The notes under the pieces: model-generated
Database searches by the model: none
Seen by the model: only the letters and a program-made list of their open reading frames with translations
What the model was told of the DNA's origin: nothing
Position numbers and translations under genes: made by a program
Part shown: piece after piece, positions 1,815 through 46,464 of the stretch
How the letters are laid out: each line of letters starts with the position of its first letter
How positions within the stretch are numbered: position 1 is the stretch's first letter
Assembly (NCBI GenBank): GCA_015058275.1
Contig: SVCQ01000016.1
Span: 1-47,377 of the forward strand
DNA length: 47,377 nt
Direction of reading: 5' to 3'
DNA from: Clostridiales bacterium
GTDB taxonomy: Bacteria > Bacillota > Clostridia > Peptostreptococcales > Anaerovoracaceae

Positions 1815-1824
1815 GGAGGTTGCT

Positions 1825-2094
1825 ATGGATTACAACAATGTGATTGAGCATTTTGCTCAGAAAGTTGATGAACCGAGAAGAGAAGAGTTCAAAGCAAAGG
1901 CATCGAAGATAGAGGATGTTTCAGCGGCCGATGCACTCGCAAGGGAATTTGGCATTGAACCTTCAGAAGAAGACAGGAAAGAAGTGATAAAAATGTTAGG
2001 TGTTATGGAACTTTCACCTGAGATGCTTCGTGATATCGCGGCTGGCTGTAACAGTCCCGTGTGTGGAGAGTGGGGTTACTGCGAAGATAAATGA
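1825..2094 (+). CDS. Candidate RiPP precursor peptide, Nif11-like leader with Cys-rich core
   Basis: 89-aa peptide with a strong SD (AAGGAGG) just before its ATG. Residues 1-70 are charged and helical, with a pattern like Nif11-type leaders: an FKAKASKIED segment, then a GIEPSEED segment, then MELSPEMLRDIAAG, which resembles the ELSDEELDxVAGG end of many leaders. Right after the AG-type site (residues 73-74) comes a 15-residue tail, CNSPVCGEWGYCEDK, with Cys at 75, 80 and 86 plus Trp and Tyr. That leader/core architecture is what I see; a precursor role is inference. The gene sits between an adenylating ligase and a U32-family protein, either of which could modify the peptide. No transporter or radical-SAM gene is adjacent. 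An alternative is a small regulatory or metal-binding protein. No phosphopantetheine Ser motif is present, so it is not an obvious carrier protein. Confidence 0.55.
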   Translation: MDYNNVIEHFAQKVDEPRREEFKAKASKIEDVSAADALAREFGIEPSEEDRKEVIKMLGVMELSPEMLRDIAAGCNSPVCGEWGYCEDK

Positions 2095-2095
2095 T

Positions 2096-3007
2096 ATGTC
2101 GTGGCGCGTTCCTGCATTATTTAATAACGACAGAGCAGCATTGAGATTAACACATCTACTCAGACCTCATCTGGGAGGTCGGCTATTCGGTTCGGTATAT
2201 GGTGCGCCTGCGTCTGCGTGGTCAGGAGGCCGTCCGTGCATCGTAAAAGAAGAAGCAGATGAAGTTTGGCTGCGCAGGTATTTCGAAGCATACAGAGCTG
2301 AAGGTATCAGATGCTCCCTGACCCTGACGAGAATGAATGTAAGCAAAGATGCGCTCAGCGATCCATATTGCAACATGCTGCTTGATCTGATTGAGGAATA
2401 TGACGGCGAAGCTATAGTGTTCAACGATGATCTGGCTGAATATATAAGGCAGACACATTCGGGGATACCTCTTGTAGCGTCGAATATAAAGCCCGCGACG
2501 GACTTTTTGAATGCCTGGGCAGGCTGCGCGAATGAATCTGAATACTACAGACGGCTTTTAGAAAGTTATGACCGCATAGTCATAAGAAGCGAAGCGGCCC
2601 TTGACGGGAAGATAAGAAAAAGCCTGAGGGATATAGCTGACCGCTGCGAGATCATAGTAAATCCGCGTTGCATACCGGACTGCCCTCATTGTCTCGATCA
2701 TTATAAGAATATAGAGAGAAAGATGGAGGATAAGGAGCACAAAGCGGGCTGCTATTACAGCGATGAGGATGATCCGCGCATCTACAGCATGAGCCTCAGA
2801 GAGGAGCAGCTCAGGGAGCTTGCAGCGGAAGGCTTTACGCAGTTCAAGATCGAAGGCCGCAATATATCCCCGGACCTATTCACCAGATACTGTATGAGTT
2901 TCATTCTCGGAAAAGAAAAGAGTGAAGAGATACAAAGCGCTATGGATAACCGGGAAATCTTTGAGCTTTTGCTGCTCATGACACAAAAGGCAGCAGGAAC
3001 ACTATGA
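2096..3007 (+). CDS. Divergent peptidase U32-family (UbiU/UbiV/RlhA-like) protein
   Basis: 303-aa protein whose ATG lies one base after the stop of the peptide gene (TGATATG), so translation is probably coupled. The family call rests on the C-terminal KIEGR motif (residues 251-255, preceded by QF), characteristic of U32 proteins, and on a Cys cluster CIPDCPHC (Cys 192, 196, 199) plus Cys 219, placed like the Fe-S ligands of UbiU/UbiV. The N-terminal half fits a TIM-barrel-like fold but shows little clear similarity. U32 relatives include oxygen-independent hydroxylases (UbiUV on ubiquinone precursors, RlhA on 23S rRNA), so a hydroxylation or other modification of the neighbouring peptide is plausible. 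This is inference. The protein is shorter than typical U32 peptidases (about 400 aa). A terminator follows about 85 bases downstream. Confidence 0.6.
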   Translation: MSWRVPALFNNDRAALRLTHLLRPHLGGRLFGSVYGAPASAWSGGRPCIVKEEADEVWLRRYFEAYRAEGIRCSLTLTRMNVSKDALSDPYCNMLLDLIEEYDGEAIVFNDDLAEYIRQTHSGIPLVASNIKPATDFLNAWAGCANESEYYRRLLESYDRIVIRSEAALDGKIRKSLRDIADRCEIIVNPRCIPDCPHCLDHYKNIERKMEDKEHKAGCYYSDEDDPRIYSMSLREEQLRELAAEGFTQFKIEGRNISPDLFTRYCMSFILGKEKSEEIQSAMDNREIFELLLLMTQKAAGTL

Positions 3008-3090
3008 TGCCATGACTCCTGGGCAGCTTAATTCTATGGAGCATAGTTCCAGGCAAAAAGAACGCATGCCGGCAATGCAGAGTATGAATA

Positions 3091-3120
3091 CCCCTGATCG
3101 TAGCGGTCAGGGGCATTTTA
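3091..3120 (+). terminator. Rho-independent terminator after the RiPP-like cassette
   Basis: A 10-bp stem (CCCCTGATCG with CGGTCAGGGG, one G-U pair) closes a TAG loop at 3091-3113, followed by CATTTTA. It separates the cassette at 186-3007 from the membrane-protein operon. Confidence 0.75.
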
Positions 3121-3147
3121 CTGTCCCGGATCGCGGCTCCGGCGTTC

Positions 3148-3176
3148 TTTAAAACACAGGGGATGTCTGTTATAAT
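3148..3176 (+). promoter_or_regulatory. Extended -10 promoter for the 3255-7243 operon
   Basis: A perfect TATAAT at 3171-3176 is preceded by TG at 3168-3169 (extended -10), with a weak -35 TTTAAA at 3148-3153 and a 17-base spacer. It lies just after the terminator, as expected for a new transcription unit. Confidence 0.6.
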
Positions 3177-3254
3177 TTTTCTGAATAAATACTTGATAAC
3201 ACGGCATTGTTTAAGGAGAACCAGGATGATTATCAAAGGGGGAGCGTGACCACG

Positions 3255-4166
3255 ATGGGGAAACCTGCCAGACAAAACAAGAGAAGATACCTGATATCTC
3301 TTTATCATACGCGCAGCGTGCTTGCGCTTGATGCCAGCATCCTGGTCTTTTGCATTACTGCATTCTCTATAGGCTATGAGCTCCGTCAATTCGATACATG
3401 GAGCACCAACATGTTCTGCTTCTTTACTATCCTGTCGAACATGTTCGCCGCCGTAGGTGCAATGCTCATGAATCCTTATGCGGTGGAGGGCATCCGCAGG
3501 AAGCGCTTTGAACTTCCGGGATGGATAGTCATGGTGCAGTACTCCGGAGCTGTATGTGTTGCGGTAACGATGATGACCACGCTGCTGCTTCTCATCCCTG
3601 TTGAGGGAGAGGCTGCCATAGCCGGCACCAATCTGTATCTGCATCTCATAACACCTCCGCTTACGATACTCTTGTTTGCCAGCGTAGAGAGCTGCCACAA
3701 ACTGCCGCGCTGGTGCATCCCGGTTGCACTTATCCCTTACTGGATCTATATGATCGTCTATTACGTCAACGTGATCGTGATAGGCGAGGAAAACGGCGGC
3801 TGGAAGGACATATACCATATCGCTGAATTTTGGCCTGCATGGATATCCGTGGTAGGCATGTTCATTGCGGGGCTTGTGATCGCCTGGGCATTGCTGTGGG
3901 GTCACAACCGTCTTACAGAAAAAAGCATCAAGCGCCTGACGGATATGTGGACTGATGATCTTGGGGACGCGGACCTTCTGGTCGAGGCTTTCGGCCTCGG
4001 ACGCTACATGGGCAAGCACTGTGATGCAGCCGGCCTGACCATGCCTCTCGATATCTTCTACATGATGCATGACAGGTACGGCATCCCGGTCGAATCACTC
4101 GCAAGGGCCTTCTACAAAGGGGCGCTCGACAGCATGGAGGAGAGGAAAGCAAAGCATGACATTTGA
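3255..4166 (+). CDS. Six-TM integral membrane protein, Pr6Pr/FAR-17a-like
   Basis: 303-aa polytopic protein with about six hydrophobic helices in residues 15-220 and a cytosolic tail of about 80 residues. The FFTILSN motif near the second helix, and Trp/Tyr-rich segments such as WPAWISVVG, resemble the Pr6Pr/FAR-17a (AIG1-like) membrane family. Some eukaryotic members hydrolyse fatty acid esters; the bacterial ones are uncharacterised. The ATG at 3255 is preferred over an upstream TTG (3207) because GGGGGAG at 3238-3244 is well spaced for it. A seven-codon open frame (3226-3249) with its own SD overlaps this site. The gene overlaps the next membrane gene by 11 bases, suggesting the two act together. 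Confidence 0.6.
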   Translation: MGKPARQNKRRYLISLYHTRSVLALDASILVFCITAFSIGYELRQFDTWSTNMFCFFTILSNMFAAVGAMLMNPYAVEGIRRKRFELPGWIVMVQYSGAVCVAVTMMTTLLLLIPVEGEAAIAGTNLYLHLITPPLTILLFASVESCHKLPRWCIPVALIPYWIYMIVYYVNVIVIGEENGGWKDIYHIAEFWPAWISVVGMFIAGLVIAWALLWGHNRLTEKSIKRLTDMWTDDLGDADLLVEAFGLGRYMGKHCDAAGLTMPLDIFYMMHDRYGIPVESLARAFYKGALDSMEERKAKHDI

Positions 4167-4938
4167 TAATTTCTGGTTTGTAAAGACCGACACAAACACT
4201 TTTCCGGAAGATATGCCTTTCGGAGTTTTTACTCCGGGGCATCTGATATGGGTTCTGATCACACTCGCTGTGATCATTATCTGTGCACTCTGCTATGTCA
4301 GGGGCAATAACAAGACCCGTGCGAATATAAGATATATCATTGCTCTTGCCATGATATTCAGCGAATTCTGGAAGGTGAGCCTCTGTGCACTCAAGGGGGC
4401 CCTTCCACACGAATACCTGCCACTCGAGGTATGCAGCCTCGGCGAATACATGATACTGATAGATTCCATGTGGCCGGACAACAGGATCACAAAGCAGCTC
4501 CTCGCATTTGCGTTCTTCCCTGCGACAGTGATGGCGCTGGCGTTCCCGGCTGCAAGCGGCTATCCTTCATTCGGCTTCATAATAATCAGGTTCTTCGTGA
4601 TGCATGGAGGCATCGCGGTATATTTTGTCTGCCGGTATGCAGCCGGAGAGATAAAGCCAAAATACGTAGGGCTTTGGGGCTCGCATCTGTTCTTCCTGGG
4701 CCTTGCCATCATTATGCATCAGTTCGACGTCAGGAACGGATTGAATTACATGTTCCTCACAGATCCTCTCGGCAATCCTGTCTTACAGCTGCTCTGGGAT
4801 ATCTCAGGAGGCAAAGGCGGGGCGCCTTACATATTTGCGCTGGCAGTCTTTGTTGCGATCATCCTGCATATATTCTACGGTATCTACAGACTTGATGCCG
4901 CAAGAGCAGGCAGGAAGAGAAGGAAGCAATCAGCATGA
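4156..4938 (+). CDS. YwaF / TP0381-family integral membrane protein
   Basis: 260-aa, mostly hydrophobic protein with about seven membrane segments. The FTPGHLIWVLI opening, the YLPLEVCSLGEY segment after the third helix, and the later HGGIAVYF helix match the TIGR02206/YwaF (TP0381) family of unknown function. The ATG at 4156 overlaps the end of the preceding gene and has a purine-rich SD (GAGGAGAGG) about 12 bases upstream. The C-terminus is basic. It overlaps the next gene in an ATGA arrangement, so the three membrane genes 3255-5759 are translationally coupled. Confidence 0.7.
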   Translation: MTFDNFWFVKTDTNTFPEDMPFGVFTPGHLIWVLITLAVIIICALCYVRGNNKTRANIRYIIALAMIFSEFWKVSLCALKGALPHEYLPLEVCSLGEYMILIDSMWPDNRITKQLLAFAFFPATVMALAFPAASGYPSFGFIIIRFFVMHGGIAVYFVCRYAAGEIKPKYVGLWGSHLFFLGLAIIMHQFDVRNGLNYMFLTDPLGNPVLQLLWDISGGKGGAPYIFALAVFVAIILHIFYGIYRLDAARAGRKRRKQSA

Positions 4939-5759
4939 AATACGTATTGATTTCGTTTGTGGCCTTCGGGGTGTTCATCCTGACCGGATGGATGGTGACC
5001 AGCCGGATCGACCGCAGACACGCACTGTCTGAGAGCCAGAGGTTTGTGACATCGGTGATAATCGCCGTATCGCTGGCTATCGTCTCTTTTCTGGGATTCA
5101 TGGGAGTCTACTACCATGCCGATGACAGTGTCAGCGCTTATCTGGTCAGCAACGACACGGTCAAAGTCGAGGAGAGTGATGATGCATACTTCTTTGACGG
5201 GCCGGGCGATTCGTCGGCAGTCATATTCTATCAGGGCGGCAAGGTCGAAGAGACCGCGTATGCGCCGCTTATGCATCGCATGGCAGAGAGAGGCACGGAC
5301 TGCTTCCTCATGAAGCTCCCGCTTCGCATGGCAGAACTTGATGCCTCAGCCGCGGATGACATCATAGAGGAATACCGTGATTATGAATGGTACCTGATGG
5401 GTCATTCCCTCGGAGGGACAGCGGCCGGTACATATACGTCTTATCATCCGGATGAGGTAAAGGGGCTCATACTGCTTGCCGCATATCCTGTCAACGATCA
5501 GGACAGGTCGTGCAGACTGCTCAGCATCTACGGAGACAGGGACGGCGTACTTGAGATGGAGGCGTACAACAGACAAAAGACCTGCTGGCCGCCGGACGGC
5601 AGCGAGCTTGTGATAAGCGGAGGCAATCACAGCGGCATGGGCTGCTACGGCCTGCAAAAAGGCGACAACAAAGCGAGGATAAGCAGCGATGAACAGCAGA
5701 CACAGGTCGCTGTAGCCGCTGCAGAGTTTATAAATAATGGCTTGAAGGGAGAGAGATAA
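4935..5759 (+). CDS. Membrane-anchored alpha/beta hydrolase
   Basis: 274-aa protein. Two hydrophobic segments (about residues 3-20 and 38-58) anchor an extracytoplasmic hydrolase domain that begins near residue 85. The nucleophile elbow is GHSLGG, a strand-turn with YGDRDG supplies the acid, and GGNHSGMG supplies the histidine, so a complete Ser-Asp-His triad is visible. It matches the Abhydrolase_5-like family, often annotated as alpha/beta hydrolase or carboxymethylenebutenolidase-like; the substrate is unknown. The start overlaps the previous stop (ATGA). The stop overlaps the aspartate ammonia-lyase start (TAATG), so the two are co-translated although their functions do not obviously relate. 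Confidence 0.8.
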   Translation: MKYVLISFVAFGVFILTGWMVTSRIDRRHALSESQRFVTSVIIAVSLAIVSFLGFMGVYYHADDSVSAYLVSNDTVKVEESDDAYFFDGPGDSSAVIFYQGGKVEETAYAPLMHRMAERGTDCFLMKLPLRMAELDASAADDIIEEYRDYEWYLMGHSLGGTAAGTYTSYHPDEVKGLILLAAYPVNDQDRSCRLLSIYGDRDGVLEMEAYNRQKTCWPPDGSELVISGGNHSGMGCYGLQKGDNKARISSDEQQTQVAVAAAEFINNGLKGER

Positions 5760-7243
5760 TGCATATAGAGGAAATGCTCAGAAGTACAGTCGGCTGGCCG
5801 GCAGGAGGGGATACCGCTGTTGACTTTTCGAAAGCAGAGCCGTCCGAATACAGGATAGAACACGACTCCATAGGAGAGAAGAAGATACCTGCGGAGGCAT
5901 ATTACGGCATACAGAGCATGCGCGCAGCCGAGAACTTCAGAATCACGGGCCTGGATACCCATCCGGAGATGCTCTGCAGCATCGCGTACATCAAGAAGGC
6001 CGCGGCACTCACCAACTGCAGTACGGGAGCTCTTGACAGGGATAAGGCGGATGCAATAGCACAGGCCTGCGACGAGATTCTGGACGGAGGTTTCCGCAGC
6101 GACTTCATAGTGGACCCCATGCAGGGAGGAGCCGGTACTTCTCTCAACATGAATGCCAATGAGGTCATTGCAAACCGCGCCATAGAGATCCTCGGAGGGA
6201 CCAAAGGAGATTACAGCCTCATCCATCCGAACGACCATGTCAATCTCGGGCAGTCCACAAACGACGTCATCCCTACAGCAGGCAAGATGGCTGCTATCAG
6301 GATGCTGACAAGACTGAGGATGCAGCTCCAGGTGTTGCATCTTGCTCTGTCAAAAAAGTCAGAGGAGTTCGATCATGTGATCAAGATGGGCCGCACTCAG
6401 ATGCAGGATGCAGTTCCTATCCGGCTCGGGCAGGAGTTCAAAGCCTATGCCGATGCAGTTGAGAGGTCGATCCTGCGCATAGAGAAGGCTGCGGATGAGC
6501 TCAGGGTCATCAATCTGGGAGGCACAGCGATCGGTACAGGTGTGAACGCAGATGATGAATACATAGGCAAGATAGTTCCGGTGCTCTGCGACATATCCGG
6601 GATAGATCTGGTGCAGGCAGATGATCTGATAGATGCGACTCAAAACCTCGATCCGTTTGTGAGCGTATCGGGAGTTGTAAAGACATGCGCGGTGACGCTG
6701 TCAAAGATCTCCAACGATCTGAGACTGATGTCATCCGGCCCTAAGGCTGGATTCGGCGAGATAAGTCTTCCTGCCAGGCAGAGCGGATCCTCTATCATGC
6801 CGGGCAAGATCAATCCCGTCATACCTGAGGTCGTCAATCAGGTGGCATTCAATGCGATCGGAAATGACACGACTATAGCTCTTGCGGCCGAAGCCGGTCA
6901 GCTAGAGCTCAACGCATTCCTGCCGATAATATTCTACAATCTGTTCCAGTCCATAGACACGCTCGGCTTTGCGGTGGAGACATTCGCCGACAACTGCATC
7001 ACGGGCATCACGGCCAACGAGGAACGCTGTCGCAAGCTCGTAGAAAGCAGTGTTGGAATTGTCACGACCCTTGCAGCTGTTGTGGGTTATGACAAGGCGA
7101 CCGACATAGCAAAAAAGGCTCTGATCCAGGACCGTCCTGTCAGGGAGATAATACTCGGGGAAGGTCTTCTTGATGAGGATGAGGTGACAAGGCTTCTAGA
7201 TCCTGCAAGGATGACAGGGATAGGCAGCGAAGACAGGAATTGA
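5759..7243 (+). CDS. aspA: Aspartate ammonia-lyase (aspartase)
   Basis: 494-aa cytosolic enzyme converting L-aspartate to fumarate and ammonia. The fumarase/aspartase superfamily signature GSSIMPGKINPV lies near residues 342-353, and GQSTNDVIPT and GRTQMQDAVPI are also present. The core begins at RIEHDSIGEKKIP, where most aspartases start, so this protein has an N-terminal extension of about 32 residues. The ATG at 5759 is kept because GGGAGAG lies directly upstream and the gene overlaps the preceding stop; no Met occurs just before the core. Fumarase is a possible alternative, but the RIEHDSIGE start and overall pattern favour aspartase. It is last in its operon. In an anaerobe it would feed fumarate and ammonia from amino-acid fermentation. 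Confidence 0.9.
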   Translation: MHIEEMLRSTVGWPAGGDTAVDFSKAEPSEYRIEHDSIGEKKIPAEAYYGIQSMRAAENFRITGLDTHPEMLCSIAYIKKAAALTNCSTGALDRDKADAIAQACDEILDGGFRSDFIVDPMQGGAGTSLNMNANEVIANRAIEILGGTKGDYSLIHPNDHVNLGQSTNDVIPTAGKMAAIRMLTRLRMQLQVLHLALSKKSEEFDHVIKMGRTQMQDAVPIRLGQEFKAYADAVERSILRIEKAADELRVINLGGTAIGTGVNADDEYIGKIVPVLCDISGIDLVQADDLIDATQNLDPFVSVSGVVKTCAVTLSKISNDLRLMSSGPKAGFGEISLPARQSGSSIMPGKINPVIPEVVNQVAFNAIGNDTTIALAAEAGQLELNAFLPIIFYNLFQSIDTLGFAVETFADNCITGITANEERCRKLVESSVGIVTTLAAVVGYDKATDIAKKALIQDRPVREIILGEGLLDEDEVTRLLDPARMTGIGSEDRN

Positions 7244-7283
7244 TCAGTCGATTTTTTGCCGACAATCTTGTAGGAAATAATAG

Positions 7284-7328
7284 TATAATACGAGTTAGTT
7301 TAGTATTACGCAGCATATGATGCTGCGT
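7284..7328 (+). promoter_or_regulatory. -10 element and 5'-end hairpin ahead of the ligase operon
   Basis: TATAAT at 7284-7289 has no convincing -35 at 16-18 bases. About 18 bases downstream is a perfect inverted repeat: ACGCAGCAT (7308-7316), a three-base loop, ATGCTGCGT (7320-7328). If transcription starts near 7297, the mRNA begins with this hairpin, which could stabilise the long transcript. The hairpin would also bury the GTG at 7327, one reason for preferring a later start. Confidence 0.45.
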
Positions 7329-7359
7329 GAGCAGGAGCAATCAAACAAACCGCTTAGCA

Positions 7360-9771
7360 ATGAAAAAAGCCAGAACATCAGACATAACTGCTGCCAGGAA
7401 GCGCGTCAAAAGGACGCAAAAAGCCTGGAAGTTCATACGGGATGTCAACAACACATCCCTTGCCGATCTGAATAGGATCGCGCTCGAGGACGGGACCAGG
7501 AAGTATACATACGGACTCATGTTCCGTGAGTGGGAGAGGTACGCTTCCGTGTTCTCTTCACTTGGGATGAGCCGGGAGAAGGGTTCCCGCGTGGGCATAC
7601 TCGGTTCCACCTGCGCTGAAGTCATCTTTGCGGTATACGGTCTCAACATTACGGGAGCTGATGTATCGCTCGTACCGGCCTACAGCGCACTGACACCGAA
7701 GAGAGTGTTCAATACCATCAAAAGCGAGCATCTCACTGACTTTATCGTCACAGATGATTTCGCCCAGGCCAATATCATCAACGACCTGCTGGTGCGCCGC
7801 AAGGAGCTCGGAATCAATAACGTCATCGTGATACACGTGCCGGTCAAGGGTCCTGCGGTCAATGCAGCTGTCACAGCCATACAGGAGTCCAAATACGCTT
7901 ATTTAAAGACCCTGTATGCTCCGATCTACATGGACAATCTGCTTGCCGCTTACGGCAATCATCCGGTCAGCTATGATGCAGAGGGCAGCACCGATACAGC
8001 GGTGATACTGCACACATCCGGTACGACAAGCGGCACGGGCAAGCCGGTCGCGATGTCGGACAGGGCCATCAACGCGGCTGCAGCCGGCTTCTACGATATG
8101 GATGATCTTGATCTGCCGTGGGATGATCTTGTAACGGCTGTCATAGTTGATCTCAGCAATGCATACGGTCTGATAGATCAGGTACATCTGCCGTTTGCGA
8201 TGGGTGCCACCGTGGCTGTCGTGCCGGGAGGCATACTCAATCCATGGTTCTACAAGGCGATCTCCGGATTCGGCATCACATTTATGTTTACCATCAGCGC
8301 CATGTTCGAGCGCTGGATAAAGATGAAAAACAAAAAGGCCTTCGACTTTTCGAGCCTGCGCTTCGTTGTACTCGGAGGAGCGGCAGTATCCGCATCGGAC
8401 AAGCGACGCTTCTATGACTTCATGCAGGAGCGCGGTGCAGGGGACATTACTCTCCTCAACGGATACGGAGTATCCGAACTCGGAGGGGCCTGCTGCCTGT
8501 CCACTGCGGACATAGATGATGAGGCCATAGGCTATGCGCTTCCGGGATTCAATGTGCGCCTGTTTGACGATGACAGGGGAGTGTTCCTCTCGCAGGACGA
8601 CGCTCCATGCGAGGGAGTTCTTTATCTGAATTCGCCTGCACTTGCTACATCCGAGCTCGACGGAGTGGAGATAATGAAGACCGAGGAGACCGGCCGCAGG
8701 AAGTACATCTGCACCAACGATCTTGTACGGATGGACAGAGACGGCAAGCTTACATTCCTTGGCAGAGCCAACCGCTACTTCATCAATGATGACGGCAAGA
8801 AGTACGAGTCGGGACGCGTCGAGACAGAGTTCGCGCGTCAGAGCGATATCGAGAGCTGCGGGGTAGTGCCTGTATATATCAAGACGACACACGACAATAT
8901 CCCTATGCTCTGCGTCAAGGTCCTTGATTTCTGCAAGGATCCGCTCGAGACGGTCAGGGCGGATCTCGTAAAGGTATTCATATCCGAAAAAACGCTCTCA
9001 GAGGACAATATCCCGTGCCGCGTTATGATAGCTAAGGAACTCCCGCTGAACCGCAACGGCAAGATAGATCTGTACAGGATGAGTCGCGGCGAGGTAGAGG
9101 GAGATGTATATACAGTAGATCCTGTCCGTGACAGACAGGGCCTCAGGGACTTCAGACTCAGGCCTTATGAGGACGGACCTGCGGACATGATCAGGGAAGT
9201 ATTCGACGGTATTACGGCAGAGATCAAAGAGAATCTGCCGTTTAATAAAAACAAGTCAGAGGAGGAAGACAAGATGAACGCCAAAAAAGCATTCGAAGAC
9301 TGGAACGCAATGAACAAGATGGGCAGACAGATGATGCAGAACATGATGAGCCAGATGGGTCAGAACATGAGCTCCATGCCGGGCATGCCTGACATGTCCA
9401 AGATGATGGGCGGTATGCCTGACATGTCCAAGATGATGGGAGGCATGCAGGAGATGAACAAGAAATTCATGTCCGGAATGCCTGATGTACAGGGCATGAT
9501 GCAGAAGCAGGCTCAGACAGCTCTTCCTGTAATGCAGCAGCAGATGAATCAGATCGTCACATGCATGAGCCAGATGAACCAGACTGCTCTTGAGCTGATG
9601 CAGAAGATGTTCGATCAGCACTGCGAGATGATGAATCAGATGTTCGAGATGGCTCAGAAGGCGGCAGCAGGCGAGATGCCTAAGGCGGCAGCCAATGCTG
9701 AGAAGCCTGCAAAGGCAGAAGCCAAGCCGGCAAAAGCATCATCCAAGCCTGCCAAAAAGGCAGATAAGTAA
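7360..9771 (+). CDS. AMP-forming ligase with Met-rich, phasin-like C-terminal extension
   Basis: 803-aa protein. Residues 1 to about 600 are a divergent adenylate-forming domain. Its P-loop HTSGTTSGTGKP (about 218-230) carries an extra residue relative to the usual SGTTGxPKG; it also has YGVSELGG (A5), CTNDLVRMDRDG (A7) and LNRNGKIDLYR (A10 with the catalytic Lys). The last 165 residues are different: roughly one residue in five is Met, with repeated PDMSKMMGGM units, then long amphipathic helices (ALELMQKMFDQ region) and an Ala-Lys-Pro tail. That layout resembles phasins or other hydrophobic-surface-binding proteins. A strong internal SD precedes an in-frame ATG at 9274, so the tail may also be made alone. 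Start choice: ATG 7360 has no clear SD; GTG 7327 is the alternative. First gene of the 7.3-15.2 kb ligase operon. Confidence 0.7.
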   Translation: MKKARTSDITAARKRVKRTQKAWKFIRDVNNTSLADLNRIALEDGTRKYTYGLMFREWERYASVFSSLGMSREKGSRVGILGSTCAEVIFAVYGLNITGADVSLVPAYSALTPKRVFNTIKSEHLTDFIVTDDFAQANIINDLLVRRKELGINNVIVIHVPVKGPAVNAAVTAIQESKYAYLKTLYAPIYMDNLLAAYGNHPVSYDAEGSTDTAVILHTSGTTSGTGKPVAMSDRAINAAAAGFYDMDDLDLPWDDLVTAVIVDLSNAYGLIDQVHLPFAMGATVAVVPGGILNPWFYKAISGFGITFMFTISAMFERWIKMKNKKAFDFSSLRFVVLGGAAVSASDKRRFYDFMQERGAGDITLLNGYGVSELGGACCLSTADIDDEAIGYALPGFNVRLFDDDRGVFLSQDDAPCEGVLYLNSPALATSELDGVEIMKTEETGRRKYICTNDLVRMDRDGKLTFLGRANRYFINDDGKKYESGRVETEFARQSDIESCGVVPVYIKTTHDNIPMLCVKVLDFCKDPLETVRADLVKVFISEKTLSEDNIPCRVMIAKELPLNRNGKIDLYRMSRGEVEGDVYTVDPVRDRQGLRDFRLRPYEDGPADMIREVFDGITAEIKENLPFNKNKSEEEDKMNAKKAFEDWNAMNKMGRQMMQNMMSQMGQNMSSMPGMPDMSKMMGGMPDMSKMMGGMQEMNKKFMSGMPDVQGMMQKQAQTALPVMQQQMNQIVTCMSQMNQTALELMQKMFDQHCEMMNQMFEMAQKAAAGEMPKAAANAEKPAKAEAKPAKASSKPAKKADK
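9257..9276 (+). promoter_or_regulatory. Internal ribosome-binding site and start within the ligase gene
   Basis: AGAGGAGGAAG lies five to eight bases before an in-frame ATG at 9274. Initiation there would yield a separate 165-aa Met-rich protein ending at the normal stop at 9771. The spacing is ideal, and this SD is better than that of the full-length start. Confidence 0.5.
9385..9444 (+). repeat. Two-copy 30-bp tandem repeat in the Met-rich tail
   Basis: Two adjacent 30-base units (9385-9414 and 9415-9444) encode MPDMSKMMGG twice. They differ at only two positions near their ends, suggesting recent in-frame duplication. Confidence 0.85.
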
Positions 9772-9786
9772 AAACGAGAGGGTATT

Positions 9787-11697
9787 TTGAACGGCACCGG
9801 ACGAAGACAGATCGAAAAGAGGATCAATGACGGCAGCATAAACGAGCAGAGCATATGGAAGTATATCAGGGAGAAGAACACCGCTGATCCGTATATGCTC
9901 TGCCGCACCGCCGTGATCGACTGCACGAGGGAGTATACCTACGGGCAGATGTTCACCGAATGGGAGCATTATGCCCGCGTCTTTTCGGCTCTCGGCATGA
10001 CAGGGAAAAGCGGCGCCAGAGTCGCCATTGCCGGCACCATCTCAGCGGAGCCTCTCTTTGCGTTCTACGGTCTCAACATGACAGGCGCTGAAGTCTCGAT
10101 GTTCTCATATCCGGACTTCCTGCCGGGAGGCATGTGGAAGACCATGGCCGCAAATGAAAAGATCACGGACCTGATCATATCCGATATCATGATCAGCCCG
10201 GATACATGGCATGACATCAAAAAGACCGCAGATGAACTGGGCATGCGCAACGTGATACTTGTGCACTCAAAACTCGGAGGGCCGTGCTGCGGTCCGGCTG
10301 AGCTTGTATATAACGAGATTAACGGCCATGCACTCAAGCGTCTCGGCGACACCGTGTTTATGGATGACCTGATCAAAAGATACGCTTCGGCGCCGATATC
10401 TTACGGCACGGGCGACCCGGATCATCTCGCCGTGATCACACATACCTCGGGCACTACCAAGGGCACGCGCAAGCCTCTGCCTTACAGCGAGAGGTCAGTC
10501 AACACGGTGGCTACGCATTTCTCAGGCAGCTTTCAAAGAATGTCTCTCGGTACGGATAATGCCGCTCAGTTTCGTGTGACGCCGAGCTTTGACTTCAGTT
10601 CATTCCTGTGCATGTGCGGAGTCGTAAATGCATTTTTCTCAGAAGGACAGACGCTGGTGCTCACATTCTTCGGATTCATGCATCCCAAGTTTGTCAGAGC
10701 TGTGGGGTATTACGGCATCAACGTATTGTTCACTTCCGGCTTCATGATCGACAGCTGGATGGACAGGTCTGATCACGGAGACATAGATTTCTCTTCAGTC
10801 GTGGTATTCGGCTGCGGCGGTTCGTACATGCCGCCTGACAAAGTCAGGAAGTATACGGAATTCATAAAGAGCCGTGGTTTCAGGGGCGAGATGAAGAGAG
10901 GGTACGGCATGTCCGAGACAGGAGGGGCAGAGCTCTACGTACCTCTGGGCTGCATGGACGATATCCTCGGATTTCCTGCCAACAACGATGATTACCGTAT
11001 ACAGGATAGCGAGGACGGTCGGTTCTACGCTCCTGATGAGGGAGTCAGGACGGGAGTCATGTATGTGGCTTCGGATTCGCTTTGCATGAACGAGCTCGAC
11101 GGAGAGACTCTGTTTGAGTTCACTAAGATAGATGGCAGGGATTTCCTTTGCTCTAACGATCTTGTAAGGGTAAACGAGGACGGCAGCTTCTCATATGCCG
11201 GCAGGGCCGACAGATATTTTGTAAACAATGACGGGGTACGCTTTGAGGCGGGCCTTGTAGAGACTGAGCTGTCCAGGCAGCCGGGCATAACCATGTGTGC
11301 GGTCGTACCGGTGCTCGATAAACGCATACACGACACCGTTCCGGTGCTGTATGTGACGACTGATGCCGGAGCGGATGACCCCGCAGAGACCGTCAGGAAG
11401 GCCCTCAAAAAGGTCTTCGTTGATGACGGGCTCATCGCGAAGAGCATACTGCCTACGCAGTTCGTTATCACGGACGAGATACCGTGCAATTCAAACGGCA
11501 AGATAGACATTTACAGGATCACAAGGGACAGACTGAACGGAGAGGCTTATAACATTGCCGCAGTGCACAAAGGAGATGCTGTCACGGACGTCAGCTGCGA
11601 GCTGACAGAGCATACCGAAAGCATCAAGGCGGGAACCCTCCCTGAGGGCATGGGCTCCGGATCTGCACTGGGCATATTCGAACTCTTCAACAACTGA
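9787..11697 (+). CDS. AMP-forming ligase (stand-alone) of the Met-rich cluster
   Basis: 636-aa adenylate-forming enzyme, paralogue of the ligase domains on both sides. The P-loop THTSGTTKGTRKP (about residues 218-230) has the same one-residue expansion. YGMSETGG, CSNDLVRVNEDG, GRADRYFVNNDG and NSNGKIDIYR are the A5, A7, A8 and A10 equivalents. TTG at 9787 is used as start: GAGAGGG lies just upstream, the next Met is 36 codons in, and the N-terminus (QIEKRINDGSINEQ) aligns with the linker of the fusion protein downstream. It ends with AGTLPEGMGSGSALGIFELF, a tail shared with that fusion (AGTLPQGLENNSAYNMFDLF). No carrier protein or CoA-specific feature is obvious. It starts 15 bases after the previous stop. 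Confidence 0.75.
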   Translation: MNGTGRRQIEKRINDGSINEQSIWKYIREKNTADPYMLCRTAVIDCTREYTYGQMFTEWEHYARVFSALGMTGKSGARVAIAGTISAEPLFAFYGLNMTGAEVSMFSYPDFLPGGMWKTMAANEKITDLIISDIMISPDTWHDIKKTADELGMRNVILVHSKLGGPCCGPAELVYNEINGHALKRLGDTVFMDDLIKRYASAPISYGTGDPDHLAVITHTSGTTKGTRKPLPYSERSVNTVATHFSGSFQRMSLGTDNAAQFRVTPSFDFSSFLCMCGVVNAFFSEGQTLVLTFFGFMHPKFVRAVGYYGINVLFTSGFMIDSWMDRSDHGDIDFSSVVVFGCGGSYMPPDKVRKYTEFIKSRGFRGEMKRGYGMSETGGAELYVPLGCMDDILGFPANNDDYRIQDSEDGRFYAPDEGVRTGVMYVASDSLCMNELDGETLFEFTKIDGRDFLCSNDLVRVNEDGSFSYAGRADRYFVNNDGVRFEAGLVETELSRQPGITMCAVVPVLDKRIHDTVPVLYVTTDAGADDPAETVRKALKKVFVDDGLIAKSILPTQFVITDEIPCNSNGKIDIYRITRDRLNGEAYNIAAVHKGDAVTDVSCELTEHTESIKAGTLPEGMGSGSALGIFELFNN

Positions 11698-11741
11698 TCA
11701 CGCTGATCCTTTTCATACATAACACATAAGGAGAGAGTAAA

Positions 11742-12176
11742 ATGTTTGATTTTTCTGACGATCACAAGAATCCATTCATGTTCATGATGAATATGAACGA
11801 AGAGGATGCGGAAGCCATGGAGTCATTTGATTTCGGGAGCTTCAGCAATCCGATGATGTTCATGCAGCAGGCCTTCATGATGCAGATGCAGATGGCTGCA
11901 TACATGTTCATGATGCCTCTTCAGATGATGAAGTCGATGGCGGGAATGGTGAGCGGGGCCATGAACGGCGAGACTGAGGAGAAATCCGAAGCGGCTCCGG
12001 GAACCATCAAGATAGGCAACTTCAACGTTTCCCCTGAGATGCTCCAGAAGCTGATGGCAATGGACATGAGCCCGGAGAACCTCGAAAAGCTCCAGAAGGT
12101 GCTTGACTTCACACTTGGCATGATACCTGACAAAAAAGCAGAGAATGATTCTCAGGAGGTCAAAGATGGGCAGTAG
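11742..12176 (+). CDS. Small Met-rich, phasin-like protein
   Basis: 144-aa protein with about 26 Met residues and many Phe, in a block of residues 10-75 such as NPMMFMQQAFMMQMQM. An acidic linker follows, then a conserved-looking segment: GTIKIGNFNVSPEMLQKLMAMDMSPENLEKLQ. It has a good SD (AAGGAGAG) before the ATG and overlaps the next gene by 11 bases. The Met/Phe-rich helices have no charged residues for long stretches, so the protein could bind a lipid or polymer surface, or a hydrophobic ligand. I know no named family. It has the same bias as the tail of the 7360 ligase, so the two probably do the same job. Metal (copper) binding by Met is possible, but the even helical spacing argues more for a hydrophobic surface. 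Confidence 0.65.
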   Translation: MFDFSDDHKNPFMFMMNMNEEDAEAMESFDFGSFSNPMMFMQQAFMMQMQMAAYMFMMPLQMMKSMAGMVSGAMNGETEEKSEAAPGTIKIGNFNVSPEMLQKLMAMDMSPENLEKLQKVLDFTLGMIPDKKAENDSQEVKDGQ

Positions 12177-15100
12177 CGACGGAATCGGCAAGACAATAAA
12201 GCGCGAACTCTTCCGTGCGATGATGGAGCGTGTCCAGAGCATGGATACGATGAAGATGATGAGCGCCTTCGGCGCATCGGATCCTGTCATGTACGATGAT
12301 GTGGAGGAGACTCTCAATATCGCATATGTAAATCGCGAAGAGACTGCTCTTGCGATGGATATCTTCAAGCCTAAGGTCCCAAAGGGCACAGAGCTCCCTG
12401 TCATCGTAATAATCCACGGAGGCGGACTTTTCATGGGAGACCGCGGTCTCGAAAGACCATACAGCCGCCTGTTGGCCCACAAGGGATATCTCGTATTCTC
12501 GCTCGAATACAGACTCGCTCCGAGAGCCACTATAGGACAGCAGCTCGATGATGTATGCGCAGGCATGGACCTGGTAGGGCAGAAACTCGTCGATTATGAT
12601 GTGGACTTCAGCCGCATGTTCCTCATGGCTGACAGCGCAGGCGCATATCTGGCATGCTACGTTACGGCAATGCACGAGTCCGAAAAGCTCCAGAACATCA
12701 TCGGCTACAAGCCTTCGAGGATGGTGTATGCTGCTGTAGGCTTCATGAGCGGCATGTTCTATACCAACAGGATGCTTGCCGATCAGATATTCGGAGACAA
12801 AAGGGATGACGAGAAATTCCTCAAGTACATGAACCCTGAGCACCCTGAGATAGTAGGCAATCTGCCGCCGGCATTCCTGCTGACAAGCTGCGGCGACAGC
12901 TTCAACAACTACTCACTGAAGTTCAACAAGGCCCTCAAAAAGGCCGGCAGGGTATCTAAGCTGCTTTATTTCGGAGATGAGGATCTTCAGCATGTATTCA
13001 CGATCACAAATCCGGAACATCCGAGGAGCATAGAGGCTACCGACAAGATGCTCGCGTGGTTTGAGGAGCAGGCAGACATCAGGAGGAATGCACGCAAAAA
13101 GGACTCGGCAGGCGCCGAAGCAAAGAAAAAAGTCGAAAAGCGCATCAAGGACGGCAGCATTACAGATCAGAAGGTATGGCGTAATCTCAAAGAGAGGATC
13201 GATGCCAACCCTGCGTGGCTCAAAAAGCCTGCGATCATAGACTGCACACGCAGCTACTCATATGAGCAGATGCTTGAGGAATGGGAGCGTTATGCCAGAG
13301 CCTTTACGGGCATCGGCATAGGATACGAAAATAAATCCAGAGTCGCTCTCTGCGGCACTATCACTGCTGAGCCGCTGTTCGCCTTGTACGGACTCAACAT
13401 GGTTGGAGCCGAAGTCTCGCTCTTCTCATATCCGGACTTCCTGCCTCACGGCATGTGGAAGGACATGATCGAAAAGGAGCATATAACAGATCTTGTGATC
13501 TCAGACATTATGGTCACATCCGAAGTCTGGGAGGAGATAAAGGAAGTCGGCAGGAAGTGTGGCCTTCGCAATGTGATACTCATGCATTCGCTGATGGGCG
13601 GACCGGCAGTAGGACCGGCAGAGCTCACTTTCAATGAGTTCAACTATCACATGCTGAAGAGAAAGCCTGAGACTGTCTTCATGGACGAGCTCTGCAAGAA
13701 GTACAGACACACAGAGATCAAATATGATGAGTCAAAGGGAGACCGCATAGCATTCATCACACACTCATCCGGAACCACAAAGGGAACACGCAAGCTCCTG
13801 CCGTATACCGACAAGGCATTCAACGCTTCGATCGATATCATCCCGGGCAGTCTGCGCGGCTTCGTCAGGGGGATCGAAGAAGGCAAGCAGCTCAGGATAA
13901 TCCAGCTCTTCGACTTCAGTTCCATAATGGCTCTGGCAGGACAGCTCAACGGATCGTTTATAACCGGTGAGACTGTTGTGCTGACATTCTTCGGATTCAT
14001 GCACCCTAAGTTCATACGTGCGATCGATTACTATAATGTCAGCTTCCTGATGATAACCGGATTCATGGTCGATAAGTGGATCGACAGGACGGATATCGAC
14101 GACATCGACTTTTCGTCACTCAAGGTCATTGGCCTTGCCGGAGGATACACATCGCCTGACAAGCTCGAGAAGTACAAGGCCTTCTTCAAGGCTCACGGAT
14201 ACAGGTATGAACTCATGTCCGGATACGGCATGTCAGAGGCAGGCGGCAAACCGCTGGTCACAAAGGCTGACGCCAAGAAGGATGTTATCGGAAAGTTTGA
14301 CGACCCTGACGAGATACGTATCAAGGACGAGAACGACGGTAAGTTCTACAGGCCGGATGAGGGTCCTCGCACAGGCCTTCTGTACAGGATGAATGAGGTT
14401 CGCCCTGACAACAAGCTCGACGGACAGGTCCTCTACGAGTACACGAATATCGACGACAGGGACTTCCTTTGCACAAACGACCTCGTACGCGTCAATGAAG
14501 ACGGCAGCCTTTCGTTTGCCGGCAGGGCCGACAAGTACTTCGTCAACAATGAGGGCCTCAAGTTCGATTCCGGCATAGTGGACAATGCCATGGCTTCACA
14601 CAGCGCGATCGACAGATGTGCCGTAGTACCTGTCATGGAGAAGCGCATACACGATACAGTGCCTGTGCTCTATGTCATCCCGGCCAGGAAGGGCGAGGGT
14701 GCGGCTGAGAGCATACGCAAGGCCTTTGTGGATGTCTATGTAAAGGACAAAAAGATCGCTTCGGACAATCTGCCTACTCAGTTCATGATCGTGGACGATA
14801 TCCCGCTCAACCCTAACGGCAAGCTCGATATCTACAGGATCACACGCGAGAGGCTCGAGGGAGATGCCTACGACATCGTACCTGTGATGACAAAGGGAGA
14901 GCTTACGGACATAAAGACAAAGCATGTCGAGAAGGTCAACAGCACGACTGCGGGCACCCTGCCTCAGGGCTTGGAGAACAACTCCGCATACAACATGTTC
15001 GATCTTTTCACAACTCCTCCGTCAAAGGATCAAAAGGACGATTTCTCGTTCATGGATCTCTTCAAACCATGGAAGTTCTTCATGCCTGACAAAGGTGATG

Positions 15101-15225
15101 GTGACAAGGGCTCCGCACTTCCGGAGATGCCTGAGGAGATGAGAAAGCTGCTGCTCAAGTACGGCAACAGGATCTCCGGCATACCTAACGGACGCAAGTC
15201 CATAGACTTCGATTTTGAAGACTGA
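12166..15225 (+). CDS. Fusion of HSL-type esterase and AMP-forming ligase
   Basis: 1019-aa two-domain protein. Residues about 40-300 are an alpha/beta hydrolase of the hormone-sensitive-lipase type: oxyanion HGGG at 84-87, nucleophile motif ADSAGA with Ser157, and likely Asp244 (CGDSF) and His276 (LQHVF). A charged linker (about 305-320) leads to an adenylate-forming domain (about 320-935) with P-loop THSSGTTKGTRKL, YGMSEAGG, CTNDLVRVNEDG and NPNGKLDIYR. The C-terminal 80 residues are rich in Phe, Met and Lys and end in an acidic tail. ATG 12166 has AGGAGG seven bases upstream. An esterase that releases a carboxylic acid joined to a ligase that re-activates it suggests acyl exchange or remodelling; that is inference. 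Closest paralogue is the ligase at 9787. Confidence 0.75.
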   Translation: MGSSDGIGKTIKRELFRAMMERVQSMDTMKMMSAFGASDPVMYDDVEETLNIAYVNREETALAMDIFKPKVPKGTELPVIVIIHGGGLFMGDRGLERPYSRLLAHKGYLVFSLEYRLAPRATIGQQLDDVCAGMDLVGQKLVDYDVDFSRMFLMADSAGAYLACYVTAMHESEKLQNIIGYKPSRMVYAAVGFMSGMFYTNRMLADQIFGDKRDDEKFLKYMNPEHPEIVGNLPPAFLLTSCGDSFNNYSLKFNKALKKAGRVSKLLYFGDEDLQHVFTITNPEHPRSIEATDKMLAWFEEQADIRRNARKKDSAGAEAKKKVEKRIKDGSITDQKVWRNLKERIDANPAWLKKPAIIDCTRSYSYEQMLEEWERYARAFTGIGIGYENKSRVALCGTITAEPLFALYGLNMVGAEVSLFSYPDFLPHGMWKDMIEKEHITDLVISDIMVTSEVWEEIKEVGRKCGLRNVILMHSLMGGPAVGPAELTFNEFNYHMLKRKPETVFMDELCKKYRHTEIKYDESKGDRIAFITHSSGTTKGTRKLLPYTDKAFNASIDIIPGSLRGFVRGIEEGKQLRIIQLFDFSSIMALAGQLNGSFITGETVVLTFFGFMHPKFIRAIDYYNVSFLMITGFMVDKWIDRTDIDDIDFSSLKVIGLAGGYTSPDKLEKYKAFFKAHGYRYELMSGYGMSEAGGKPLVTKADAKKDVIGKFDDPDEIRIKDENDGKFYRPDEGPRTGLLYRMNEVRPDNKLDGQVLYEYTNIDDRDFLCTNDLVRVNEDGSLSFAGRADKYFVNNEGLKFDSGIVDNAMASHSAIDRCAVVPVMEKRIHDTVPVLYVIPARKGEGAAESIRKAFVDVYVKDKKIASDNLPTQFMIVDDIPLNPNGKLDIYRITRERLEGDAYDIVPVMTKGELTDIKTKHVEKVNSTTAGTLPQGLENNSAYNMFDLFTTPPSKDQKDDFSFMDLFKPWKFFMPDKGDGDKGSALPEMPEEMRKLLLKYGNRISGIPNGRKSIDFDFED

Positions 15226-15322
15226 TCAGATAACAGGACAATCAATAGAGCACGGCCCTTGTCATGAAAAGGCGGGGCTATGCCTGCATTGAACGGCCGT
15301 TACAAAGATAAAGGAGATATTG

Positions 15323-16876
15323 ATGAAAGGGATAAAGACTGACAAGAGCAGACTGAGAAAGCTGGTGTTCTCCGAGGTGGCCAGACTTGCATACGAGGGG
15401 AGCGCTCCTGAGGCGTTCGATGATCTCCCGTACAAGCTCGTGGATACCACAGAGGATCCGTACCGCGAGACTATATTCCTCGAGCGAAGCCTCCTGGGAG
15501 AGAGGATAAGAGCATGCATGGGCATGTCTCTTCGCAAGCTCGATGAGCATACGCCGGTCTCCAAGGGGCTTGAGGAGGCCATGGACTCGCAGAAGTACTA
15601 CGAGCCTCCGCTGATCGACATCATCAAATTCGCCTGCAACCGCTGTCCTGACAAGAGGGTCTATATAAGCGACGGCTGCCAGGGCTGCCTCGAGCATCCC
15701 TGCAAGGAGGTCTGCCCAAAGAAGTGCATCACTCTCGAGAGGAGAGGCGGACGGGCCGTCATAGACGAGACTCAGTGCATCAAGTGCGGCAGATGCATGC
15801 AGGAATGCCGCTTCAACGCGATCATAAAGCAGGAAAGACCATGCGTAAGTGTCTGCGGCATGGGAGCGATAGAGCAGGATGAGTACGGCCATGCCGAGAT
15901 CAACCAGGACAAATGCGTCAGCTGCGGGCAGTGCCTCAACAGCTGCCCGTTCGCGGCTATAGTTGACAAGAGCCAGATATATCAGACTGTAAGGGCACTG
16001 GTATCGGATACGCCGGTCTATGCCATCATAGCCCCGTCAATGGCGGGCCAGTTCGGCAAGGGACTCACCGATGAGAAGATAAGAGGAGCCTTTGCGGAGC
16101 TCGGATTTGACGATGTATATGAGGTAGCTGTGGGCGCGGACCTGTGCTGCATAGAGGAGGCGGAGCACTTCATCAGGGAAGTGCCGGAGGAACTCCCGTT
16201 CATGTGCACAAGCTGCTGCCCGGCGTGGTCAAAGATGGCCAAAAAGGAATTCCCTGAATTTGCGGACTGTATCTCCATGGCGATGACACCGATGGTGCTG
16301 ACCGCCAGGCTCATCAAGCAGAGACATCCGGAGAGCATGATCGTATTTGTCGGACCGTGTCTTGCCAAAAAGAAAGAAGCAAGCCGCCGCGCGGTCAAGA
16401 GCTACGTGGACTTTGTACTCACTTATGAGGAGCTCGACGGCATGTTTAAGGCAAAGGAAGTCGACTTTGACGCTATAGAGGACAGCACTCCTCCACTCAG
16501 AGCAAGCGCCGATGCTTTTGGCTTCGCCAGAAGCGGAGGAGTAGCGCAGGCTGTGGTAAATCACGTCAGGAGGATCGATCCTGACAGAGAGGTCAAGATA
16601 GTCAAGGCTGAGGGCCTGGATGAATGCATGAAGATGATGCGCAGGGCGGCCAAGGGCGAGTATGACGGTTACCTGCTCGAGGGCATGGCCTGCCCGGGAG
16701 GCTGCATCGCGGGCGCGGGCACTATGCAGCCTGTGACCAAATCCTCTGTCAACTTAGACCTCAAGATGAAGTCGATGCCTGTGGAGAATTCCACTGATAC
16801 GGCGTTCGCACACATGCTCAAATCACTCGAAAACTATCCTGAGATAATGGAGATAGATCCGTTTGAAGATTTATGA
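15323..16876 (+). CDS. [FeFe] hydrogenase, group B
   Basis: 517-aa iron hydrogenase-like enzyme. H-cluster motifs are TSCCPAW (296-302), VGPCLAKKKEA (343-353, in place of the MPC motif of group A) and EGMACPGGC (453-461). The substitutions TSCCPAW and GPC are typical of group B. The N-terminal part has a Cys-rich region (105-135), then two 4Fe-4S ferredoxin-type motifs (CIKCGRCMQEC around 152-162, CVSCGQCLNSC around 198-208). Group A enzymes catalyse proton reduction with ferredoxin; the role of group B is poorly established. ATG 15323 has AAGGAG seven bases upstream. No maturases HydE, HydF or HydG are in the window. It overlaps the next gene (ATGA). Confidence 0.88.
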   Translation: MKGIKTDKSRLRKLVFSEVARLAYEGSAPEAFDDLPYKLVDTTEDPYRETIFLERSLLGERIRACMGMSLRKLDEHTPVSKGLEEAMDSQKYYEPPLIDIIKFACNRCPDKRVYISDGCQGCLEHPCKEVCPKKCITLERRGGRAVIDETQCIKCGRCMQECRFNAIIKQERPCVSVCGMGAIEQDEYGHAEINQDKCVSCGQCLNSCPFAAIVDKSQIYQTVRALVSDTPVYAIIAPSMAGQFGKGLTDEKIRGAFAELGFDDVYEVAVGADLCCIEEAEHFIREVPEELPFMCTSCCPAWSKMAKKEFPEFADCISMAMTPMVLTARLIKQRHPESMIVFVGPCLAKKKEASRRAVKSYVDFVLTYEELDGMFKAKEVDFDAIEDSTPPLRASADAFGFARSGGVAQAVVNHVRRIDPDREVKIVKAEGLDECMKMMRRAAKGEYDGYLLEGMACPGGCIAGAGTMQPVTKSSVNLDLKMKSMPVENSTDTAFAHMLKSLENYPEIMEIDPFEDL

Positions 16877-45601: not shown

Positions 45602-45844
45602 ATGAGATTAGACAAATACCTAAAGAACTCAAGGATCATCAAAAGGCGTACTGTAGCCAAGGATGCATGCGAGCAGGGCAGGGTCGAGGTCAACGGCAAG
45701 GTAGCCAAGCCCGGCCTCGAATTAAAAAAAGGTGATGAGATATGCATCACCTTTGGTACTAACATATTGAAGGTCAGGGTGCTTTCGATGCCCGAGACCG
45801 TTCGCAAGGATGAGGCTGAGAGCCTCTATGAAGTGATCGGCTAG
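45602..45844 (+). CDS. rqcP: S4-domain ribosome quality-control protein RqcP
   Basis: 80-aa RNA-binding protein; MRLDKYLKNSRIIKRRTVAKDACEQGRVEVNG is the classical S4 motif, as in B. subtilis RqcP (YabO), which assists RqcH in C-terminal Ala-tailing on stalled 50S subunits. AAAGGA precedes the ATG. In many relatives yabP, yabQ and divIC follow; here the reverse-strand folT does. Its TAG shares the CTAG palindrome with the folT stop, so the genes overlap tail to tail by four bases. Confidence 0.9.
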   Translation: MRLDKYLKNSRIIKRRTVAKDACEQGRVEVNGKVAKPGLELKKGDEICITFGTNILKVRVLSMPETVRKDEAESLYEVIG

Positions 45845-46359: not shown

Positions 46360-46365
46360 ACAAAA

Positions 46366-46444: not shown

Positions 46445-46464
46445 GCTATTTATTGTCCTGCAGT

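Follow-up and report, generated by a model that had tools for sequence, protein, structure and literature searches.

Two of the closest described systems are the following. Polyhydroxyalkanoate (PHA) granules of Pseudomonas carry phasins, the synthase PhaC, the depolymerase PhaZ and the acyl-coenzyme A (CoA) synthetase ACS1, and PhaF combines an amphipathic helix with AAKP repeats (PMC5658603). The yeast Pbp1/ataxin-2 condensate scaffolds contain methionine-rich (Met-rich) low-complexity segments, which act as redox sensors controlling Pbp1 condensation; these are eukaryotic RNA-binding proteins (PMC8394241), comparable in composition with the proteins described here. Here we describe four genes in a 47,377-nucleotide stretch of DNA (the window) from a Clostridiales bacterium (contig SVCQ01000016.1 of GCA_015058275.1, contig 36 of a 1.82-Mb assembly that is 83% complete). 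They encode three AMP-forming ligases, an esterase and Met-rich sequences. Our preferred reading, to which we give somewhat less than an even chance, is that this is a self-contained cassette whose esterase and three ligases are gathered on a hydrophobic surface or in a self-made condensate. The surface could be a lipid or polymer inclusion or a membrane patch; the condensate would be one of the Met-rich proteins themselves. None of the papers listed by our literature searches deals with such a gene set, as judged from titles and the starts of abstracts.

A recurrent cassette of ligases, an esterase and Met-rich proteins

The four genes, A to D, are co-directional on the plus strand at positions 7327-15225 of the window, with the following features (SD, Shine-Dalgarno sequence; HSL, hormone-sensitive lipase; ORF, open reading frame):

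7327-9771, plus strand: gene A, a ligase (about residues 1-640) with a Met-rich tail and a Lys/Ala/Pro-rich C-terminus (Pfam AMP-binding, 2.7e-43)
9260-9265, plus strand: SD AGGAGG inside gene A, 8 nucleotides ahead of an internal ATG
9274-9771, plus strand: predicted nested gene A', a free phasin-like tail of 165 amino acids, in frame with A
9787-11697, plus strand: gene B, an AMP-forming ligase with an FDxS motif, ending in SALGIFELFNN (AMP-binding 6.2e-25, AMP-binding_C 2.2e-5)
11742-12176, plus strand: gene C, a free Met-rich protein of 144 amino acids with C-terminal SPENLxKLQKxLDF (alignment of 10 C proteins)
12166-15225, plus strand: gene D, an HSL-type esterase-ligase fusion (Pfam Abhydrolase_3, BD-FAE and AMP-binding)
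15202-15222, plus strand: acidic C-terminal peptide of D, IDFDFED (pattern scan of ORF ends)

The start of gene A is unsettled between 7327 and an alternative ATG at 7360. The ORF of D opens at 12145, and the likelier start is 12166, with AGGAGG just ahead of it. A and B are separated by 15 nucleotides, B and C by 44, and C and D overlap. An earlier note, made from the letters of the window, had read this layout as a tailed ligase, a ligase, a free Met-rich protein and an esterase-ligase, which the ORFs, the Pfam matches and the recurrence of the genes at 11 loci bear out; its statement that no carrier, condensation domain or PHA synthase is present is true of the four genes by Pfam.

A scan with six peptide patterns across one genome per species (84,980 species; not exhaustive) yielded nine loci, among them a D fragment on a 3.2-kb contig (L050). 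The cassette set considered below consists of 11 genomes: the window, L045, L046, L047, L048, L049, L051, L052, L053, L062 and L119. L062, which belongs to the window's genus, and L119 were added beside the pattern-scan loci; L050 stands outside the set, as do L060 and L061, which duplicate L045 and L046. The Met-rich tail, C and D are present at all 11 loci and B at eight (none was seen in L047, L051 and L052). The order A-B-C-D is found in seven loci, and the variants are A-C-D (L047), A-D-C (L051 and L052) and A-B-D-C (L062); of gene A, the contig of L048 holds only the tail gene. Because it is present in 11 loci, the A-B-C-D pattern is not a product of chance. The earlier note had proposed to judge its reading in part by whether Met-rich proteins occur with these ligases elsewhere, and they do so at 11 of 11 loci. 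The flanks vary: apart from the four genes, no family occurs in more than three of the ten cassette loci compared (L119 lay outside this comparison). In L062, an aldehyde ferredoxin oxidoreductase, a tocopherol-cyclase-like protein and a fusion of old yellow enzyme, flavin adenine dinucleotide-binding and short-chain dehydrogenase parts (OYE-FAD-SDR) adjoin the cassette (660-6724, minus strand). These neighbours are absent from the other loci compared and were dropped as evidence.

The cassette is rare and patchy. Within the window's genus, 4 of 47 genomes have a true D, counting the window's own (a fifth hit, G026, has 36-40% paralogs only). The figure is 3 of 61 for the genus to which L048, L049 and L119 belong, and 1 of 79 for that of L053, where five other genomes have nothing closer than 33-40% paralogs. 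One carrier, Butyrivibrio sp. LC3010, is a cultured strain. At class level, two of 391 genomes pass, namely the window's own and one with an A-type ligase (G385). With A as the query, a single genome among 397 of the family of L053 was recovered, that of L053 itself. A host is named for three of the cassette loci, and all are ruminants (sheep ileum for L046, roe deer rumen for L048 and sheep rumen for L051); the L050 fragment comes from red deer, and the RUG names of L045, L047, L049 and L052 presumably refer to the rumen. The record of L047 is labelled Chloroflexi, which is a label only. Carriage on a mobile element was considered and rejected: no relative was found among 53 pattern matches in IMG/VR, and plasmids matched the esterase part only, at 35% identity in two records.

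The Met-rich tail of gene A and the start nested within it

Methionine makes up 18% of C and 21% of the A tail, compared with a median of 3.5% in 134 ORFs from the window and eight related loci. The tail (104-265 amino acids) and C (116-212 amino acids) both contain short repeats. Calculated from the sequence, the mean hydrophobic moment of the A tail exceeds that of all 300 shuffles in 7 of the 11 loci; in the window z is 7.1 and the tail has a basic end. Such a basic, Lys/Ala/Pro/Thr/Ser-rich end (at least 22 of 25 residues being K, R, A, P, T or S) is present in 8 of 11 loci, and among 93 ORFs of at least 150 amino acids in six loci the same count is at most 17 of 25 outside the A genes and the tail gene of L048. 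The tail of L062 has only 7% Met and keeps both the amphipathicity and the basic end. A new finding is that the A tail is, to judge by its sequence, laid out like PhaF, with an amphipathic Met-rich helix and a basic end. This layout is the part of the earlier description of the proteins as "phasin-like" that holds; sequence homology is not supported, as Phasin_2 never rises over its cut-off in the cassette genomes.

Several results weigh against this view of the tail. Its moment is reached by 4, 12, 32 and 49 of 300 shuffles in L049, L051, L052 and L119, respectively, and the basic end is absent in L047, L051 and L052. No phasin model (Phasin_2, PhaP_Bmeg or PHA_synth_III_E) exceeds its cut-off. 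Weak matches to PHA-inclusion families do speak for a phasin-like tail: Phasin_2 gives sub-threshold matches to 4 of 10 tails (best E 0.014). BAR_3, however, matches equally many (4 of 10) with a better E of 0.00092. Five further tails give PHA_synth_III_E (0.038), PhaP_Bmeg (0.064) and Phasin_2 (0.081), all below the cut-off and outscored by DUF5930, CIS_TMP and DUF5394; the PHA_synth_III_E and PhaP_Bmeg matches both come from a single related tail, in which two unrelated families rank higher. Because BAR_3, DUF5930, CIS_TMP and DUF5394 outscore the phasin matches, the weak phasin signal may be generic to coiled coils. A Phasin_2 scan of 19 genomes returned sub-threshold matches only, and 9 of 14 control genomes were matched, two of them over the cut-off. 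AlphaFold gives a poor model of A (mean predicted local distance difference test score, pLDDT, of 49.9, with the tail mostly below 50), which contains tail helices at low confidence only, and nothing is concluded from it. Finally, C is not amphipathic except in L062.

The tail of L119 also has a match to the histone-like HC2 family (5.3e-7, below cut-off). Protein C matched no Pfam family, and nine columns are invariant across 10 aligned C proteins. A relationship between the A tail and C was rejected, as profile comparison gives none (probability 5.8).

Gene A probably has two products, the enzyme-scaffold fusion and a free scaffold, A', which would be a new arrangement. An in-frame ATG is found at the start of the tail in each A gene; of the first 10 loci examined, 9 have GGAGG ahead of it. 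This internal ATG is present in all nine aligned A genes. We compared it with the other ATG columns (ATG in at least 70% of rows; 57 columns) of nine A, eight B and eleven D genes, the A set being without L047, where A is cut by the contig end, and L048, whose contig start lacks the ligase part. The tail-junction ATG has the lowest mean SD energy of the 57 columns, -10.3 kcal/mol versus a mean of -2.8 kcal/mol. The runner-up (-9.0, in D) lies behind HGGGLF, whose Gly codons force GG, and the third (-7.7, in B) lies behind a stretch that reads GGMWKT in the window's B. We also ordered all internal ATGs of each gene by how well the preceding sequence pairs with the 16S tail: of 13 tailed-ligase genes, eight have the junction ATG in first place and three in second. 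In L119, which was fetched after the rule was formed, it ranks 1 of 37. Two natural splits fit the nested start. In L048 the tail is encoded by a gene of its own that begins at the same start (to be taken with caution at a contig end). In L067 the internal site is weak (-3.3), and a separate gene with its own SD encodes a free tail that matches the fused one at 59% identity over 80 residues. SD sequences tend to be avoided in the coding regions of highly expressed genes (PMC5100845).

Other observations count against the nested start. The junction ATG ranks only 12 of 72 in L053 and 14 of 40 in L067, and four further tailed ligases with other tails (L082, L084, L085 and L090) have no clear junction site. 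L119 is not a fully independent test because it is congeneric with L048 and L049, and the cassette loci are related by descent. Moreover, 3-78% of synonymous recodings reach the observed SD strength in the 13 genes, so that the protein sequence by itself accounts for much of the site.

Enzymes, terminal peptides and the wider family

Pfam AMP-binding is found in A, B and D and AMP-binding_C in B and D, and motif patterns locate the A3 P-loop, A5 and the A10 catalytic Lys in all three proteins of the window (SGTT, GYG.SE and NGKID in gene A), although in some of the other proteins these simple patterns overlooked a motif or put it in the wrong place. The P-loop contains an insertion, SGTTKGTRKxLP, which we take to be GH3-like; the Pfam GH3 match for D is below the cut-off. 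All NCBIfam ligase models listed fall far below their cut-offs (best 103.6 versus 476 bits). The ligases therefore share with the ANL superfamily the A3, A5 and A10 motifs and the AMP-binding profile, and differ from it in the P-loop insertion, in scores below all NCBIfam cut-offs listed, and in their tails and terminal peptides.

In a tree built without L086D, A_L047 and L119, the A-type ligases form one clade (100/100) and B and D together another (100/100), in agreement with the earlier claim of three paralogous ligases. The split between B and D is weak: D groups with L062 B at 83/49, and the six other B proteins form a clade (100/98). Because B and D of L062 pair in the tree (100/99), a separate duplication or conversion may have taken place there.

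HMMER aligns FDFS of B with the FDxS motif (A4) of the adenylation domains of non-ribosomal peptide synthetases (NRPS), and D also carries FDxS. In NRPS adenylation domains the Asp of this motif binds the amino group. The acid substrate of the ligases may be an amino acid, a serious candidate because of FDxS in B and D, the role of its Asp and the distant relatives that lie beside NRPS genes. The A4-equivalent position in A is ambiguous in the alignment, for which reason the idea of reading a specificity code from the ligase pockets was dropped. Among the relatives of known structure that sequence searches bring up are DltA, NRPS A-domains and dihydroxybenzoate (DHB)-AMP ligases, and the best matches of the ligase part of D are aryl-acid and CoA ligases.

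The N-terminus of D (Abhydrolase_3/BD-FAE in Pfam) should be an active esterase, because the HGGG motif (H84GGG) and the residues S157, D244 and H276 are invariant in 10 aligned D proteins. It shares the HGGG oxyanion motif and the Ser/Asp/His residues with HSL-type esterases such as esterase B (PDB 4n5h, E 9.1e-31). It differs from these in that the window's D has ADSAGAY, where the usual HSL motif is GDSAGG, and in its fusion to a ligase.

Also new are short, conserved peptides at the termini of B and D. The pattern SA[FYL][NG]xF[ED]L[FL] is found at the end of 6 of 7 B proteins scanned and in 4 of 10 D proteins. A second, acidic pattern, [FY]x[FYIV]E[DE], was looked for at the C-termini of 341 ORFs, in a scan without L119 in which some ORFs were counted twice because the stretches L055/L056 and L057/L058 overlap. 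Nine ORFs end in it, each of them a member or a neighbour of this enzyme family; it is exact in 6 of 10 D proteins, and the other four D ends are similar. Five paralogous ligases (L054, L055, L056, L058 and L064) have a GMGCD-type peptide at one terminus, C or N. We infer that the terminal peptides act as docking tags.

Paralogs extend beyond the cassette. In the window's genus, L054, L055-L056, L057-L058 and L059 are clusters of paralogous ligases and esterase-ligases, which also hold MFS_2, MatE and SDF transporters, one MatE being fused to a HATPase domain. In the genus of L053, the low-complexity tails are of other kinds (GYGQNPMQ repeats in L082, Tyr/Gln-rich in L084/L085 and GMGMPGM in L090), and differently tailed ligases such as these suggest a wider class. 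Relatives of the esterase-ligase and the tailed ligase adjoin multi-module NRPS genes in G456, G488 and G505 (L082-L086). Small genes in L082-L086 look STAS- and anti-sigma-like by eye. Of 18 genomes searched, in which one assembly was entered twice, 16 have a Condensation match somewhere, the window's genome among them, on another contig. There, the match (G000:C12:120801-121733) lies in a 427-amino-acid frame near an AMP-ligase match; Condensation frames of about 440-510 amino acids were seen in several other genomes.

In the window itself, a promoter scan gave 7 sites versus 8.2 expected. Terminator-like sites at 7000-15700 number 14 versus 5.7 expected from shuffles, 12 of the 14 on the strand opposite the operon. 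Farther away are a bacterial TMEM164-family protein (4069-4938, plus strand, 4e-28) and a tetrahydrofolate (THF) riboswitch (46462-46557, minus strand, 79.8 bits) ahead of a gene at 45841-46380 (minus strand).

Possible functions and comparison with known systems

From the domains, catalytic motifs, conserved linkage, tail layout and SD-ATG conservation seen in the sequences we infer a working scheme, in which internal initiation, co-localisation, docking, the substrate and the direction of reaction are all putative. D, through its esterase domain, would release an acid from an ester. Each of the three ligase domains, in A, B and D, would convert acids into acyl- or aminoacyl-AMP, ready for transfer to CoA, an amine or another acceptor. 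The A tail, with its PhaF-like amphipathic helix and basic end, would anchor A, and the second ribosome-binding site inside gene A would supply A' as a free coat protein. C would serve as a second, low-complexity scaffold, and the terminal peptides would dock B and D. In its most specific form, which we regard as somewhat unlikely, the cassette would be a new, PHA-independent enzyme organelle of gut Clostridia, made of a tethered ligase, a nested coat protein, a Met-rich partner and peptide-tagged clients, a droplet that opens esters and activates acids. If true, this would be a compact compartment design in which an enzyme is fused to its scaffold and the scaffold:enzyme ratio is tuned by a nested start codon. 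It would also provide a testable function for ligases far below NCBIfam cut-offs, in gut bacteria, where the chemistry of esters and acids (plant phenolics, lipids) matters.

The FDxS motifs bear on another explanation, unlikely in our view, in which the cassette is a carrier-free relative of NRPS: amino or aryl acids would be activated, the esterase would be a transferase or releasing enzyme, the product would be a small amide or ester, and the tails would merely hold the enzymes. The alignment of FDFS in B with A4, the FDxS of D, the solved relatives, the NRPS genes beside relatives in G456, G488 and G505 and the Condensation matches in 16 of 18 genomes are all consistent with it. However, the four genes have no carrier or condensation domain, the cassette carrier G013 and the relative G385 have no Condensation match at E 1e-10, and TIGR01733 is far below its cut-off; the equivalent position in A is ambiguous, and D is closest to aryl-acid and CoA ligases.

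We consider it quite improbable that the cassette is a PHA-like granule system with an unrecognised polymerase, in which A' and C would form the coat and D would be a depolymerase with a reactivating ligase. The functional set is akin to that of Pseudomonas granules (PMC5658603) and the tail of A is PhaF-like, but the PHA synthase models TIGR01836 and PF07167 each matched 0 of 14 genomes (12 distinct, G008/G443 and G022/G444 being the same assemblies; 10 carriers, with the carrier G961 outside the set; several assemblies incomplete). The Caulobacter control scored below the cut-off for TIGR01836 and above it for PF07167. Because these models found nothing, no known polymer core is available, which also tells against our preferred reading. 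A search for wax ester synthase/diacylglycerol acyltransferase (WS/DGAT, PF03007) matched 0 of 11 genomes, and it was uninformative since the control was equally silent. The earlier proposal is therefore upheld for co-occurrence and for the PhaF-type layout; phasin homology is not supported, nor is a storage granule, given the 0 of 14 genomes for the PHA synthase models.

It is very improbable that the low-complexity tails are neutral repeat expansions without function: their variable lengths and short repeats would be expected of such expansions, but the tail and C are kept in 11 of 11 loci, C has nine invariant columns in 10 proteins, and the SD-ATG is conserved at the junction. Least probable of all is that the Met-rich segments bind copper or sense redox and that the enzymes are unrelated operon passengers, since, although M-x-M and M-x-x-M runs, which can bind copper, are visible in the sequences and the Met-rich domains of yeast Pbp1 are redox sensors, no signal peptide-like N-terminus was seen by eye (no predictor used), the Met-rich proteins are linked to ligases in 11 of 11 loci, and the L062 tail, with 7% Met only, is still amphipathic with a basic end.

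Our preferred reading, of enzymes gathered on a surface or in a condensate, finds its nearest counterpart in the Pseudomonas PHA-granule set (PhaF/PhaI, PhaZ and ACS1). Both have an amphipathic helix with a basic, AAKP-like end, and both bring a hydrolase together with AMP-forming acid activation. In contrast to Pseudomonas, no PHA synthase and no significant phasin-family match was found here, and the scaffold and ligase, like the hydrolase and ligase, are fused. The enzyme classes and phasin-type scaffolding are thus of known kinds; what is new is a set with no recognised polymer synthase, a likely nested scaffold gene and the fusion of these parts.

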